From: Caballeronia sordidicola
Lineage (GTDB): Bacteria; Pseudomonadota; Gammaproteobacteria; Burkholderiales; Burkholderiaceae
NCBI RefSeq assembly: GCF_000729995.1
Contig: NZ_JNFG01000022.1
Location: 1 to 64,000 of the forward strand
Direction of reading: 5' to 3'
DNA: 64,000 bases
A program made the position numbers and the translations under genes. The notes beneath the pieces are model-generated. The model worked only from the letters and a program-made list of their open reading frames with translations. It was not told the origin of the DNA and did no database searches. Position 1 is the first letter of the stretch; every line of letters starts with the position of its first letter. This document shows positions 52,431 to 58,197 of this stretch, one piece after another.

Positions 52431-54068
52431 ATGACCCGCTTCAACTGGCAGAACCCCTATCCCACACCGCGCTTGCCCGTGTTCGCGCGCAATATTGTTT
52501 CGACGTCGCATCCCCTCGCCGCGCAAGCCGGCTTGCGGATGTTATGGAAGGGCGGTAACGCCGTCGATGCGGCTATCGCGGCCGCGGCAGCCATCACGCT
52601 GGTCGAGCCCGTGTCGTGCGGACTTGGCGGTGATGCGTTCGCGCTCGTCTGGGACGGCGCCAAGCTGCATGGCTTGAACGCATCGGGCGTGTCACCGGCC
52701 GCGTGGAACGTCGATTACTTCAAGAACAAATACGGTGAGCAAAACGGCCTGGCGAACCAGCCGAAGCGGGGCTGGGACGCGGTCACCGTGCCCGGCGTGA
52801 TCGCGGGATGGGAAGCGTTGCACGCAAAGTTCGGTTCGCTGCCATTCGGCGACCTGATGGAGCCAGCCATTGAAATTGCCGAGCGCGGTCATGCAGTGGC
52901 GAGCATCGTTGCATACAAATGGGTGGCGGCTATCCCCGAGTTAAAAGACCAGCCCGGTTTCGCCGATACCTTCATGCCGCGCGGCCGCGCGCCCGAGATC
53001 AGCGAGTTGATGCGTTATCCCGGTCACGCGAAGACATTGCGCGCGCTTGCCGAACACGGACCGCGCGCGTACTACGAAGGCGAGATCGCCGAGAAGATCG
53101 CGGCGTTTGCAAAGCAGGGCGGCGGCGCGATGACCGCTGCCGATCTGCGTAACTACAAGGCCGACTGGGTCGAGCCGATCTCGAAGGATTATCGCGGGCA
53201 TACAGTCCATGAGATTCCGCCGAACGGGCAGGGCATTGCTGCGTTGATCGCGCTCGGCATTCTCGATAAATTCGATGTGAAGTCGCTGAGCGTCGACAAA
53301 ATCGAGTCACAGCATTTGCAGATCGAAGCCATGAAGCTCGCTTTCGCCGATGTCTATCAGTACGTCGCCGATCCGCGTTCCATGGACGTCACGCCCGAGC
53401 AGATGCTCGACGACGCGTATCTCACCGAGCGCGCCAAGCTCATCGATCCGAACAAAGCGAAGCACTTCGACTTCGGCATGCCGCCGGCGGGCGGGACCAT
53501 CTATATGTCGGTGGCTGACGAGCGCGGCATGATGGTGAGTTTCATCCAGTCGAACTACATGGGTTTTGGCTCAGGCGTGGTCGTGCCCGATTCGGGTATC
53601 GCGATGCAGAACCGCGGTTTTGGTTTCTCGATGGACCCGAAATCAGCGAACGTGGTGGAAGGCGGCAAGCGTCCGTTCCACACGATTATCCCGGCGTTCC
53701 TGACGCAGAATGTGAACGGCACGCAGGAAGCAGTGATGAGCTTTGGCGTGATGGGCGGCGACATGCAGCCGCAAGGCCATCTGCAATCCATCGTGCGGAT
53801 GCTTGATTACGGACAACAACCGCAAGCCGCTTGCGATGCGCCGCGCTGGAAGGTGAATCGTGACTTCACCATCGATGTCGAATCTACGCTTGATCGTGAA
53901 ACGGTAAAGGCGCTTCAGGCGATGGGCCACACGATCAAGTCCGTCGACGATCCGTATATGGACTTCGGCTCAGGCCAGTACATCTGGAAACTGGACCGCA
54001 ACGATCCCGAGCGTGGGTATGTGGCGGCAAGCGATAGTCGCCGTGATGGGCTGGCCGCGGGGTTTTAA
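52431..54068 (+). CDS. ggt: gamma-glutamyltransferase family protein
   Basis: The 545-residue product begins at ATG 52431. GGT enzymes cleave gamma-glutamyl bonds of glutathione and related compounds and mature by self-cleavage before a Thr. Patches include GLRMLWKGGNAVDAAIAAAA, VSCGLGGDAFALVWDG, and the cleavage/catalytic region PPAGGTIYMSVADERG with Thr356. GFGSGVVVPDSGIAMQNRG and MGGDMQPQGHLQ follow. No signal peptide is seen, so it is probably cytoplasmic, unlike E. coli Ggt, and resembles the YwrD-type group. It ends the ABC operon. Its last 26 codons are repeated at 56383-56463. Confidence 0.9.
   Translation: MTRFNWQNPYPTPRLPVFARNIVSTSHPLAAQAGLRMLWKGGNAVDAAIAAAAAITLVEPVSCGLGGDAFALVWDGAKLHGLNASGVSPAAWNVDYFKNKYGEQNGLANQPKRGWDAVTVPGVIAGWEALHAKFGSLPFGDLMEPAIEIAERGHAVASIVAYKWVAAIPELKDQPGFADTFMPRGRAPEISELMRYPGHAKTLRALAEHGPRAYYEGEIAEKIAAFAKQGGGAMTAADLRNYKADWVEPISKDYRGHTVHEIPPNGQGIAALIALGILDKFDVKSLSVDKIESQHLQIEAMKLAFADVYQYVADPRSMDVTPEQMLDDAYLTERAKLIDPNKAKHFDFGMPPAGGTIYMSVADERGMMVSFIQSNYMGFGSGVVVPDSGIAMQNRGFGFSMDPKSANVVEGGKRPFHTIIPAFLTQNVNGTQEAVMSFGVMGGDMQPQGHLQSIVRMLDYGQQPQAACDAPRWKVNRDFTIDVESTLDRETVKALQAMGHTIKSVDDPYMDFGSGQYIWKLDRNDPERGYVAASDSRRDGLAAGF
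53988..54068 (+). repeat. left copy of 81-bp ggt 3'-end duplication
   Basis: The last 26 codons and stop of ggt match 56383-56463 at 74 of 81 bases. All seven differences are at third codon positions (including the stop, TAA against TAG), and the encoded residues are identical. Confidence 0.9.
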
Positions 54069-54167
54069 GTTTTGTCTCGGCAGTATCGGCTCGTCGTGTC
54101 TGCACTTGGCCACGCAACCAGAAACCAAGCCAAGTGCGCGGCAAGAGAATAACTTTTCATTTGGCAG

Positions 54168-54366
54168 TCAGCCGAACACAGGCGGTCCAAGGTCCAGCGT
54201 GATCATGTACCGCTCGTCGTTCGGACGGTTCCCGTTGAACGCACCGGCGAATGTCGAGAACGACTTCAAACTTGTTGTCGGCTCTGCAATAGGTCATCGG
54301 ATCTGTCACGGATTTGAGTTTGGATGGCGGGTGTATCCCTGATGGGTGGATTTTCAGCTGTCAGGG
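54168..54366 (-). pseudogene. eroded copy of the 54491-55120 gene (3' part)
   Basis: Read on the minus strand with frame changes, this region gives TAENPPIRDTP, then TDPMTYCRADNKFEVVLDIRR, then NDERYMITLDLGPP before a stop at 54168. The intact neighbour has TADHPPITDTS, DPQTFWQAGDKYQVSLDVRR and NDERYLITLQLSGPP in the same order. At least one frameshift lies between the second and third blocks. It is a decayed paralogue of the last third of that gene. Confidence 0.75.
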
Positions 54367-54480
54367 TGGAGCGCCCACGCGAACTGGCTTGCTCGCATTA
54401 GCGAGGCTAAACAGCGACGGCCGCTCGGAAGTACGGGCGAATCACGTCTGCAACCAGTCAAGTTTGCTCGAGCGAGCAGG
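54367..54480 (-). pseudogene. eroded fragment of the 55117-56130 gene
   Basis: On the minus strand this reads LASLMRASQFAWALH, matching TTLMRANQFAWALN of the intact gene, with weaker similarity before it and stops in frame. It joins directly to the preceding fragment, so an internal deletion fused pieces of a second copy of the two-gene pair. Confidence 0.7.
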
Positions 54481-54490
54481 CGGCGCTGCG

Positions 54491-55120
54491 TCAACCACCG
54501 TTTTGCTCCGTCATTAAAGGTGGCCCACTTAGCTGTAACGTGATTAGGTATCGCTCGTCATTAGCCGGATTCGCGTGTTTGAAGCGACGAACATCGAGAG
54601 AGACCTGATATTTGTCGCCAGCCTGCCAGAAAGTCTGTGGATCGGCCCCGGCGCGTATCTCTGCGCGCATGGTTGACGTATCCGTTATAGGCGGGTGGTC
54701 AGCAGTCAGAACCGGTCGCCAGTGTGCGCGCCGGAGTTGGTCTTGCAAAGCGACTGCCGTCGCTATAGCTTCGTCAAGCGGCAGTGTCTCAACTTGGGGT
54801 GATAGCGTTAGCTGCGTGACGTTGCCGTCTTGATCGGCGTATAGGCTTAAGAGTTTTGCAGCCGGTGTCACAAACCCGTATTGCGGGTCACTGAACAGAA
54901 GGACGGCTGGGCGCCGGACATAGAGGTTAATCCTGTTGTCACCGGTAAGTAACGGCAGCGTCGATCGGGATTGCTGACGTATCTGCGAATAAGATTCGCC
55001 AATCGTCAACACCACTTCGTCGGCCGGCTTCGCTTTCACATAGATTTCCCACACAAGAGCAAATCCAAGGAGCAGACCGGCAACTTGCCAGCGCCATTTC
55101 TTAGTTCGAGCTTCGGTCAT
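54491..55120 (-). CDS. unrecognised membrane-anchored protein
   Basis: The 209-residue product has one N-terminal membrane helix at about 12-28 (WQVAGLLLGFALVWEIYV) and an extracytoplasmic or cytoplasmic globular part rich in beta strands. Patches are VVLTIGESYSQIRQQSRSTL, INLYVRRPAVLLFSDPQYGF and DKYQVSLDVRRFKHANPAND. I do not recognise the family. Its start overlaps the stop of the upstream gene by four bases, so the two are translated together and are probably partners. A decayed second copy lies at once downstream. Confidence 0.7.
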   Translation of the reverse strand: MTEARTKKWRWQVAGLLLGFALVWEIYVKAKPADEVVLTIGESYSQIRQQSRSTLPLLTGDNRINLYVRRPAVLLFSDPQYGFVTPAAKLLSLYADQDGNVTQLTLSPQVETLPLDEAIATAVALQDQLRRAHWRPVLTADHPPITDTSTMRAEIRAGADPQTFWQAGDKYQVSLDVRRFKHANPANDERYLITLQLSGPPLMTEQNGG

Positions 55121-56130
55121 CGTCCACCACCTCCAGCAAGCAAGAACAGAGAGTTCTCGACGGAATGGCGTTCGATTGGATGGTGCAACAATTCGTTAAA
55201 CCGGTTTGCTGCGCGCAGGACAAACGCCATTCGTTGATCAGGATCGGCAAGATTCGCTAGGGGCTCCTTGCTGAATATCTCGTATTTCGCGTTGGCACCC
55301 GTGACCGTGCATTGATTGGCGAGCGTCAACTGGATTTCCCGCGCCGATCCGGTTGGGATGTTTAGCGCCCACGCGAACTGATTTGCTCGCATTAACGTGG
55401 TAAAACCTGGATCGTTGTACATAGCAGGTTGCAGGATATTGAGTTGTTCGTGGCGAGCCAGTTGCGCGACTCCCTCAGTAAGATTGCCGGAATCAATTGC
55501 ACTGAACCCGCGTCGGATCTCATCCTTTACTGTACCGAACGGAACCCGATCAGCTATTGGCCACACGACCGCCCCACTCAATAGCGCTCGCTCCGGTAGA
55601 CAGCGCTCAAACCTCTGCAACCCAAATTCCTTATAAAACATGTGCAGCGGCCATATATCGAGAAACAACGCGACGTTACCCTTCGCCAGCATCTCATAGA
55701 CCTTTCGTGCGCCTTCGCCGGACGCCTGATCGGGCACCGGCATACGCGGCGAGGCATAAGGCGACAGGCGTTCAAGCGGCGAACTGGTTTTGTCCCATTG
55801 CTGGTAGGCATCCCGCTGTCGGTTGGACTTATCGATCATCTCTGCGGCGTTGAGCAGGCCGCAGCCAACCTGTTTGGATGCAAATGCAGCAAGCCCGGCC
55901 CATTGGAACCGATGATCGTCCAGCCACAATTGCGCATAAGCAGCATTGATGCGCCGGTTTCGCACGATCGGATCGTCGACGGATACGATAGCCTCAGCCT
56001 TCTTCTGGTAGACGCGCCAGCAATTGAAGCAGTCTTGCTTGTCGTCTTCTGCCCGTTTCTTCGCGGCCGCCTCTTCTTCTTTCCAGTTCGGGTAACAAAT
56101 TGGACACCTGTGGTCATCGCACTTTTTCAT
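55117..56130 (-). CDS. unrecognised Cys-cluster protein
   Basis: The 337-residue product has an N-terminal Cys/His cluster (CDDHRCPICYPNWKEEE, then DCFNCW), which suggests zinc binding. A long helical region follows with patches RRINAAYAQLWLDDHRFQWA and LLSGAVVWPIADRVPFGTVK, then HEQLNILQPAMYNDPGFTTL. There is no signal peptide or clear membrane helix. It faintly recalls DUF2515-like proteins that I associate with secretion-effector regions, but I cannot confirm this. It heads a two-gene unit with the membrane-anchored protein. Confidence 0.65.
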   Translation of the reverse strand: MKKCDDHRCPICYPNWKEEEAAAKKRAEDDKQDCFNCWRVYQKKAEAIVSVDDPIVRNRRINAAYAQLWLDDHRFQWAGLAAFASKQVGCGLLNAAEMIDKSNRQRDAYQQWDKTSSPLERLSPYASPRMPVPDQASGEGARKVYEMLAKGNVALFLDIWPLHMFYKEFGLQRFERCLPERALLSGAVVWPIADRVPFGTVKDEIRRGFSAIDSGNLTEGVAQLARHEQLNILQPAMYNDPGFTTLMRANQFAWALNIPTGSAREIQLTLANQCTVTGANAKYEIFSKEPLANLADPDQRMAFVLRAANRFNELLHHPIERHSVENSLFLLAGGGGR

Positions 56131-56382
56131 GCAACCTGCTTGTCGTGATTGATTTCGTTTTATCGCGCATCGTGATCATCGTTTGCGACGCGTGCCCACA
56201 TATACGCTCAGCCGCGAAGAACATTGAGCGGCCGCTCTCAGTGAGGGGCAAACCTAGCAGATTGCTGGACGTTCATGTTATTGGGATAGGCGTTGCTCTC
56301 TTCCGAGAGAAGGATCGGCCCGTTGCGGGCATCGCGGGGGCGAACTTCTATGGTTGATTGGTCCCGCCGCTGTTCTGTCTCT
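56131..56382. other. right flank of the accessory segment
   Basis: Noncoding by inspection. A plus-strand frame ending at 56357 (LLDVHVIGIGVALFREKDRP, then AGANFYG) reads like the C-terminus of a lost protein and lacks a good start. An ATG at 56350 opens a chance frame into the ggt 3'-end copy. Confidence 0.4.
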
Positions 56383-56463
56383 AAGCTGGACCGCAACGAT
56401 CCTGAGCGTGGCTATGTGGCGGCAAGCGATAGTCGCCGTGATGGACTGGCTGCGGGGTTCTAG
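56383..56463 (+). repeat. right copy of ggt 3'-end duplication (ggt remnant)
   Basis: Codes KLDRNDPERGYVAASDSRRD and six more residues to a TAG, identical in protein to the end of ggt at 53988-54068. Only synonymous third-position changes separate the two copies. Nothing upstream of the Lys codon matches ggt. Confidence 0.9.
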
Positions 56464-56580
56464 GAAAGAGATACGCTCGGTTACGTTTATCGCATTCCGG
56501 TAGCACCTGTATCAAACCGCTCTCCCTACACTCGGTTACGTAAACAACACGTTTGCACACCATGTGCACGGAGAGATGCA

Positions 56581-56871
56581 ATGAACAAGAAGATCCTGGG
56601 TGCGGTACTGGGCTTGAGCGCGCTGTTGGTATCGGCGGCAGCGTCCGCTCATGTGGATGTCGCCGTGGGGATCGGCGTACCGGGTTATTACGCGCCAGCG
56701 CCGGTGTATGTCGCACCGCCCCCGCCGGTTGTCGTGGGGTATGGATACGGCGGTTACGGCGGTTATCGCGACGAAGGATGGCGCGAACGCGAATGGCGTC
56801 GCCGCGAATGGCATCATGAACAATGGCGTGACCATCATGGGTACGGCGACCGCCGCGGTTACCGCGATTGA
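56581..56871 (+). CDS. small exported Tyr/Gly then Arg/His-rich protein
   Basis: The 96-residue product has a signal peptide MNKKILGAVLGLSALLVSAA ending ASAH. Its Pro/Tyr/Gly mid part (APAPVYVAPPPPVVVGYGYG) and charged WREREWRRREWHHEQW tail give low complexity. It has a GGAGAG site before ATG 56581. A family of such envelope proteins is common in Burkholderia; the function is unknown. A strong terminator follows. Confidence 0.7.
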   Translation: MNKKILGAVLGLSALLVSAAASAHVDVAVGIGVPGYYAPAPVYVAPPPPVVVGYGYGGYGGYRDEGWREREWRRREWHHEQWRDHHGYGDRRGYRD

Positions 56872-56900
56872 GCCTGGAAACGCCAGATATAGCGCACAAA

Positions 56901-56938
56901 GAAGGGCCGTTTCCAATTGACGTTGGAAACGGCCCTTC
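56901..56938. terminator. 16-bp perfect stem, bidirectional terminator
   Basis: GAAGGGCCGTTTCCAA (56901-56916) pairs with TTGGAAACGGCCCTTC (56923-56938) around TTGACG. It lies between the stops of converging genes (56871 plus, 56965 minus), so it probably serves both. Confidence 0.8.
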
Positions 56939-56964
56939 TCGTTAGTCGGTGAACGCAAGCTCAA

Positions 56965-58197
56965 TTATGAAGCCGAACCCAACGCATACCGCCTGCAATG
57001 TTCGAGATAACCCGCTTCGTGACTGCTCACCAATTCCACGATACTTTTCCACAGCCAAGACGGCGCATCGAGCGACTTCGACTTAGCGCGGCGTAACTCC
57101 GATAACCACGCGCGCCGCTGTGTTGCGTCCATCTGCCGGGCGTGCGCTTTGCCGACGACCATCGCCAGAAAGCTTGCCGCCTTCACCGCTTCATCCTGCG
57201 TCAATTGCTCGACCGTCAACTTCATGTCCTGCGGCAACAACTCGCGAATCACCACCGACCGGTCGTTCAAACGCGCCGAGCGCATCCGCTCTCCGAGCCA
57301 CGGCGTCAGATGCCGCGCGCCTTCCACGATCCGTTCGGCGTTATCGCGTGGCATGCGCTTCGTCACGTCCGCATCCGTGTAACGCGGCGCGGCTGCCTTC
57401 ACGCCTTCCTTGATATCGATCAGGCAAAGATCGTCGCCTTCTATCGCACCGCCGTCGATGTCCAGCAACACCGCATATCGCAACCGACCGAGCGAGCTGC
57501 AACCTTTCACCCAATAGGCGGCATCGATTACGGTGACGCTTTCTTCGTCGGCATTCTTGCGCAAAGTGGTAGCAATATCGGCAATCTCGCGCTGCTTGAA
57601 CAGCGCTTTGATTTCGGCGCGCTCGGTCTTGTCGAGTGGCCAGAAACGCTTGCCGAGGGGAATGCACGGTTCAATGTCTTCGATGCGTTCGATCGCCAGT
57701 TGCTGCCACGTGCGGCGCACCGCTTCCTTCATCATCACCCGTACCTCTTCGGGCTTCGTGTCCTTGACGGAGCGATGGCTGGAACGATCGAAGGCATGTT
57801 CGTAGCCTTGCGCTACGGCTTCCATCATGCGTGCTGTCGTGACGCCCGGCAGGTCGGAACCGCGTGCGGCCGTTGCCAGCGATAACCCCAGCCGGATGAT
57901 GTCGTGCGCCGGGTTGCCGATCACGGTCTGGTCGAGATCGCGGATCTGGATCTCCACGCGGCCGTCGGCGTTGGCAATGGGTCCCAGGTTGCCGGTATGG
58001 CAATCGCCGCAGATCCAGATGGCTGGGCCTTCCGGCAGCGAGTGCCCTTCGATGCCGTCGAGCCATTCATAGAACTTGGTCGTGCTGCCGCGCACGTAGG
58101 CGTGCGCGGATTCGGCCATTTTCATGTTGCGGCGCTCAAGTAGAAGCGCTTGACGATCATTGGGGTTGGGTAATTTGAATTTCTTTTTCTTTGGCAT
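56965..58197 (-). CDS. DUF2252 family protein
   Basis: A 410-residue full-length member. Family marks: WICGDCHTGNLGPIANADGR (kinase-like loop), QIRDLDQTVIGNPAHDIIRL, CSSLGRLRYAVLLDIDGG and LTVEQLTQDEAVKAASFLAMV. The fold relates to aminoglycoside-phosphotransferase-like kinases, but the substrate is unknown. It contains the C-terminal region that the copy at 105-743 lacks. The two differ enough in sequence to be separate subfamilies. Confidence 0.88.
   Translation of the reverse strand: MPKKKKFKLPNPNDRQALLLERRNMKMAESAHAYVRGSTTKFYEWLDGIEGHSLPEGPAIWICGDCHTGNLGPIANADGRVEIQIRDLDQTVIGNPAHDIIRLGLSLATAARGSDLPGVTTARMMEAVAQGYEHAFDRSSHRSVKDTKPEEVRVMMKEAVRRTWQQLAIERIEDIEPCIPLGKRFWPLDKTERAEIKALFKQREIADIATTLRKNADEESVTVIDAAYWVKGCSSLGRLRYAVLLDIDGGAIEGDDLCLIDIKEGVKAAAPRYTDADVTKRMPRDNAERIVEGARHLTPWLGERMRSARLNDRSVVIRELLPQDMKLTVEQLTQDEAVKAASFLAMVVGKAHARQMDATQRRAWLSELRRAKSKSLDAPSWLWKSIVELVSSHEAGYLEHCRRYALGSAS

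Follow-up and report, generated by a model that had tools for sequence, protein, structure and literature searches.

Directly behind the gamma-glutamyltranspeptidase gene ggt of Caballeronia sordidicola lies an inserted cassette that is absent from the corresponding site of relatives, is bounded by two ggt 3' ends differing at synonymous positions only, has its closest counterparts in Paraburkholderia and belongs to a group of cassettes found at unrelated sites elsewhere. We lean towards the view that it came from a close relative already carrying the cassette beside ggt, through recombination that was anchored in ggt at one end of the incoming DNA, the other end being joined illegitimately. 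Unless a locus (L) is named, coordinates are those of the window, i.e., the whole 64,000-nucleotide stretch analysed (contig NZ_JNFG01000022.1, positions 1 to 64,000); the assemblies used are drafts, and G and L numbers are our handles for genomes and loci.

The final 81 bases of ggt are repeated 2,395 bases downstream (copies A and B; Table 1). Our alignment confirms what the first-pass annotation had reported from the letters of the window, namely two 81-base ggt ends with seven differences, each at a third codon position, that encode the same peptide. The differences include TAA versus TAG, and the peptide is KLDRNDPERGYVAASDSRRDGLAAGF*. Aligned locally, the cassette flanks score 130 against a best of 25 in 60 shuffles, and the similarity of the two copies is far above chance. 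It starts sharply at an AAA/AAG codon and breaks off at the stop codon. Copy A is the in-frame continuation of ggt. The sequence preceding copy B is not ggt and joins it abruptly at AAG, so copy B is a 26-codon fragment and no gene. Misassembly seems unlikely, since the joint 5' of copy B lies in sequence not common to ggt and an independent assembly, that of P. domus described below, has the same pattern.

Among 57 other Caballeronia genomes, 11 (G060, G058, G002, G020, G008, G067, G064, G019, G013, G059 and G057) have an exact empty site, in which a single ggt end continues directly into the flank that follows copy B in the window, and the ggt-side and downstream-flank matches overlap by 77-84 bases. 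These sites bear out the earlier proposal that an acquired segment brought a second ggt 3' end with it. The same segment was also sought beside ggt in these genomes: the insert is seen there in 0 of the 57, 5 of which gave no match whatever. A full second ggt end is absent from all of 53 other ggt loci, for one of which the downstream sequence extends over 2.3 kb only; the sole matches are two short ones of 22 and 24 bases. The search for second ggt ends extended over 398 genomes of the family, with the two best candidates scored per genome. Two apparent cases were rejected: in G272 the second match to the ggt end sits within the ggt body, and in G134 the match is a 34-base piece whose surroundings contain no ggt. 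Two ggt genes on separate contigs are present in G281 and probably in G057. The outermost stretch of the insert on each side has no match in the 57 other Caballeronia genomes, and the similarity between the two edges is at chance level (equalled in 25% of 500 shuffles in direct and 61% in inverted orientation).

Table 1. Features of the ggt region and its insert in the window.
Feature	Coordinates	Strand	Evidence or remarks
ggt, gamma-glutamyltranspeptidase, 545 aa, complete	52431..54068	+	PF01019, E 6.8e-157
Copy A: 3' end of working ggt, probably donor-derived	53988..54068	+	Alignment; affinity test
Insert left edge	54069..54170		Unmatched elsewhere in the 58 Caballeronia genomes
Decayed orphan module: second partner gene remnant and 13-residue piece of DUF2515 C-terminal half	54177..54404	-	Sequence comparison
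DUF2515 partner, 209 aa, immunity-like, N-terminal hydrophobic stretch	54491..55120	-	No Pfam match; homologous partner beside DUF2515 elsewhere
Predicted type VI effector (DUF2515 protein), 337 aa	55117..56130	-	PF10720, E 7.4e-71; PAAR fusions and VgrG neighbours in relatives
Region upstream of DUF2515 gene, common to four Paraburkholderia cassettes	56131..56288	-	DNA similarity to the four cassettes ends at 56288-56292
Insert right edge	56285..56382		Unmatched elsewhere in the 58 Caballeronia genomes
Copy B: displaced ggt 3' end, native-like	56383..56463	+	Alignment; affinity test; continues into native flank
Native downstream flank	56464..58197		Small protein gene 56581-56871 (+); DUF2252 gene 56965-58197 (-)

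The insert contains no recombinase, its two long genes (by open reading frames and Pfam) being those for the DUF2515 protein and its partner, which, from its N-terminal hydrophobic stretch, would be a small membrane-anchored protein. As in the window, the partner lies directly downstream of DUF2515 (within 400 bases) in 77 of 80 named DUF2515 loci, and 23 of the 80 have two or more partner copies. In two Pseudomonas loci DUF2515 is fused to a PAAR domain (L169, 5647-7101; L170, 5587-7059), and in L112 (5385-9197) and L114 it follows a VgrG gene recognised by Pfam; a neighbour gene in L113 clusters with these VgrG genes. Such fusions and adjacency suggest that DUF2515, a family of unknown function that we did not find mentioned by name in the literature searched, is a type VI effector domain. 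Because of this company, and because the partner follows so regularly, the insert is most likely a type VI effector/immunity cassette. The DUF2515 protein of the window has itself neither a PAAR domain nor a VgrG neighbour and probably depends on a type VI secretion system for its delivery; the three PF05591 matches above cut-off in the same genome are three TssB (VipA) genes. A structure model (helical, mean pLDDT 74.3) finds no counterpart in the PDB at an E-value of 0.001 or better, and a weak PADLOC match of the partner to Cas8b (E 0.021), the only PADLOC match, was set aside as chance.

Cassettes elsewhere vary in composition. Those of L103, L108 and L109 carry extra toxin C-terminal pieces together with a further partner, and such orphan partner copies and toxin tails within cassettes reflect the same habit of displacement as the ggt end. 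L151 (4765-9942, Curvibacter sp.) contains tandem DUF2515 modules, with a 66-base stretch from the toxin 5' end repeated after the last partner. The DUF2515 contig L175 (3,675 bases, Pseudomonas putida ASAD) has ends with a 222-base overlap (99%), which would fit a circle or a tandem amplification. In L049 (9539-10550, G052) a frame break interrupts the DUF2515 gene. Directly after the cassette closest to that of the window, in P. lacunae (L115, 7731-8713), come a phage-lysozyme-family gene and a gene for a small secreted-looking protein, possibly a second effector/immunity pair.

DUF2515 is present in 38 of the 398 genomes of the family. Among the best 80 of 188 relatives, the window's DUF2515 protein is 87% identical to that of P. 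lacunae, 85% to that of P. elongata and 65-68% to seven Caballeronia homologues; the closest cassette relatives in this set are in Paraburkholderia, and none stands beside ggt, which is absent from the flanks (up to 6 kb) of all 80 named loci. In 24 loci compared, the recurring families are DUF2515 (24), the partner (21) and alternative-frame reading frames over both, and no other neighbour family occurs in more than 5. The cassette has no match in plasmids or phages, and a donor with ggt followed directly by the cassette was found neither in the 57 relatives nor in the 80 named loci.

A second scar of the same kind, at another gene, is present in P. domus (L116), where a DUF2515 cassette stands between lplT and mutS and a 103-base copy of the lplT 3' end lies on its far side. 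The two lplT ends differ at four sites, all of them third positions, with the peptide unchanged; the sequence preceding the displaced end is unlike lplT and joins it abruptly, as before copy B. Empty lplT-mutS sites in G408, G309, G384 and G404 show the two matches overlapping by 103 bases. When the ggt end is aligned with the lplT end, the scores do not rise above those of shuffled sequence (equalled in 289 and 393 of 500 shuffles); the two target ends are unrelated and have no core in common.

We compared the flanks of cassettes in two scans, the first covering 600-base flanks of 73 cassettes and the second 104 stretches, 102 with a recognised cassette, in which several genomes appear twice and the loci are not independent. 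The second scan gave a match at E 1e-6 or better in 21 stretches. Among the alignments inspected (L116, L151, L158, L162, L169, L170 and the window), two, those of L116 and the window, show a clear duplication of a gene end. In L162 (5374-5478 and 9429-9532, Pseudomonas sp. NFACC02) two copies of a DUF3392 gene 3' end border a DUF2515 cassette; they are more diverged than those of ggt and lplT, with differing C-terminal residues rather than synonymous changes only. The 319-base repeat (94%) around the PAAR-DUF2515 cassette of L169 (4432-4750 and 7740-8057) covers the ends of a small gene and of a TauE gene together with an intergenic stretch, and may be another displaced junction. The flank repeat of L170 is a terminator, that of L151 lies within a toxin gene, the match in L175 is that of its overlapping contig ends, and the repeat of L173 looks like a terminator. 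The repeats of L140, L142, L149, L153, L165, L168, L176, L183 and L194 look like Pseudomonas palindromic repeats; a presumed REP pattern matches L158 and L166, two of 17 repeat sequences. Matches also occur in L150 and L190. Around seven other Caballeronia cassettes there are short imperfect matches only and no long flanking repeats, and a displaced gene end is absent from most cassettes scanned.

Because all 11 differences at the two loci are synonymous, each pair looks as if two ends, both seemingly evolved under coding constraint, had been brought together, in keeping with the impression of the first-pass annotation that the differences resemble those of two genuine gene ends. Eleven of 11 synonymous changes would have a probability of 0.005 if half had fallen on an unconstrained copy and 8e-5 if three quarters had; for the seven ggt differences alone, the values are 0.037 and 0.003. 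Local duplication of the ggt end at insertion, by template switching or a long target duplication and followed by drift, is thus very improbable, since a free copy should gain non-synonymous changes and copy A has an affinity unlike that of the gene body (see below), even though copies A and B agree at 54038 and 54044 in bases that all of eight relatives lack, and both lplT copies have a 3' stretch that is absent from the 12 relatives compared, as a local copy would lead one to expect.

Under the preferred reading of import anchored in ggt, the donor would have been a close relative with the cassette (DUF2515, partner and one decayed orphan module) behind its ggt. Homologous recombination of the incoming DNA inside ggt would have left the working gene ending in the donor tail, copy A, and the other end of this DNA would have joined, with no homology involved, a little inside the tail of the resident ggt, pushing that tail 2.3 kb downstream as copy B. 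The agreement of A and B at 54038 and 54044 against eight relatives means that such a donor must belong to a very close lineage. Weighing against this reading are that agreement, the absence of a donor from the 57 relatives and the 80 named loci, the small number of sites behind the affinity signal described next, and the lack of a displaced gene end at most of the cassettes scanned.

We asked which end is foreign by comparing 81-base stretches for their similarity to six near and six more distant relatives (D), the near set having been picked from the gene body and flanks, i.e., after the gene body had been viewed. Copy A has D = +4, closer by 4 bases to the distant set, a value reached by 0 of 493 overlapping in-frame ggt stretches (maximum 2), whereas the D = -2 of copy B is reached by 207 of the 493. 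With G067 as the sole near relative, 0 stretches reach the value of copy A and 123 that of copy B. When the near relatives serve as queries, their last 81 bases have D from -4 to -1, with a maximum of 3 elsewhere. The signal is carried by about four sites (53990, 54008 and 54068, plus 53975 just upstream), and on these few sites copy A looks imported and copy B native. The presumed crossover within ggt is not locatable from variable sites, though the affinity of copy A differs from that of the gene body. At lplT, three of the four nearest relatives tie and one favours the displaced copy, while of 20 other relatives 13 favour the attached copy, two tie, two favour the displaced copy and three are not comparable; this leans the same way as ggt and decides nothing.

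The first-pass annotation had pointed to an element or recombination event that brought its own ggt 3' end, as when an element targets a gene 3' end, and had suggested looking for an integrase in larger versions. An integrase targeting ggt is not supported, because the segment contains none, the related cassette in P. domus is bordered by an unrelated lplT end without a common core, and 0 of 53 other ggt loci have a full second end. A broader version of this idea is a CIME-like remnant, in which a site-specific recombinase, since lost or acting from elsewhere, restored ggt with an element-borne tail. It would account for the restored gene end, the displaced second end and the empty sites, and it predicts the observed affinities of A and B if the crossover lay at the repeat's 5' edge; nevertheless, the three points just listed bear against it too, as does the lack of a plasmid or phage match for the cassette, and we consider it unlikely. 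Somewhat more doubtful still is a course in which the cassette landed behind ggt without any duplication and DNA of an empty-site relative later replaced the right side, through recombination in the downstream flank and an illegitimate join at the cassette edge, making copy B the foreign one. This would require no donor with the cassette at ggt and is compatible with two constrained ends, but the anomalous end, on few sites, is copy A and not B.

How interbacterial weapons reach chromosomal sites remote from secretion clusters without integrases is poorly known. The novelty of import anchored in ggt lies in the anchoring in housekeeping genes and in the synonymous-only displaced tail, a scar of which we recognised no description in the literature searched. 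As a tentative and rather doubtful generalisation, DUF2515-type effector-immunity cassettes might form an integrase-less mobile class that settles behind housekeeping genes along with a donor copy of their tails; gene tails would then act as interchangeable landing handles, and synonymous-only displaced tails as a scar by which transfers could be counted genome-wide. Such a displaced tail names its anchor gene and, with population data, could reveal the donor copy, which makes one-sided recombination testable through genome scans.

Integrative elements and CIMEs inserted at gene 3' ends come with a recombinase and a site-specific core. The window resembles them in its accessory segment between two gene 3' ends and in the restoration of the gene, and differs from them in that no core or recombinase is found and the two target ends are unrelated. 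For Burkholderia, the available part of a pangenome study treats illegitimate recombination in general terms only (PMC4613141). At Pseudomonas aeruginosa vgrG loci, breakpoints fall at the vgrG 3' end and are less precise downstream, which was read as homology-facilitated illegitimate recombination; the window is similar in having its breakpoint at the 3' end of a neighbouring gene, whereas the P. aeruginosa events are swaps within known effector loci, with no displaced housekeeping end described in the accessible portion of that report (PMC11751169). The closest parallel is found in Vibrio cholerae, for which the portion of the report available describes type VI modules that arrive horizontally, proposes homology-facilitated illegitimate recombination anchored on one side, and places displaced old immunity genes and effector ends behind the new module (Kirchberger et al. 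2017, PMC5361080). The one-sided anchoring and displacement that we propose are the same; however, as far as that portion goes, the Vibrio anchor is a conserved upstream region in a type VI cluster and the displaced items are immunity genes and effector ends (PMC5361080), whereas in the window a housekeeping gene remote from type VI genes serves as the anchor and its 3' end is the displaced item.
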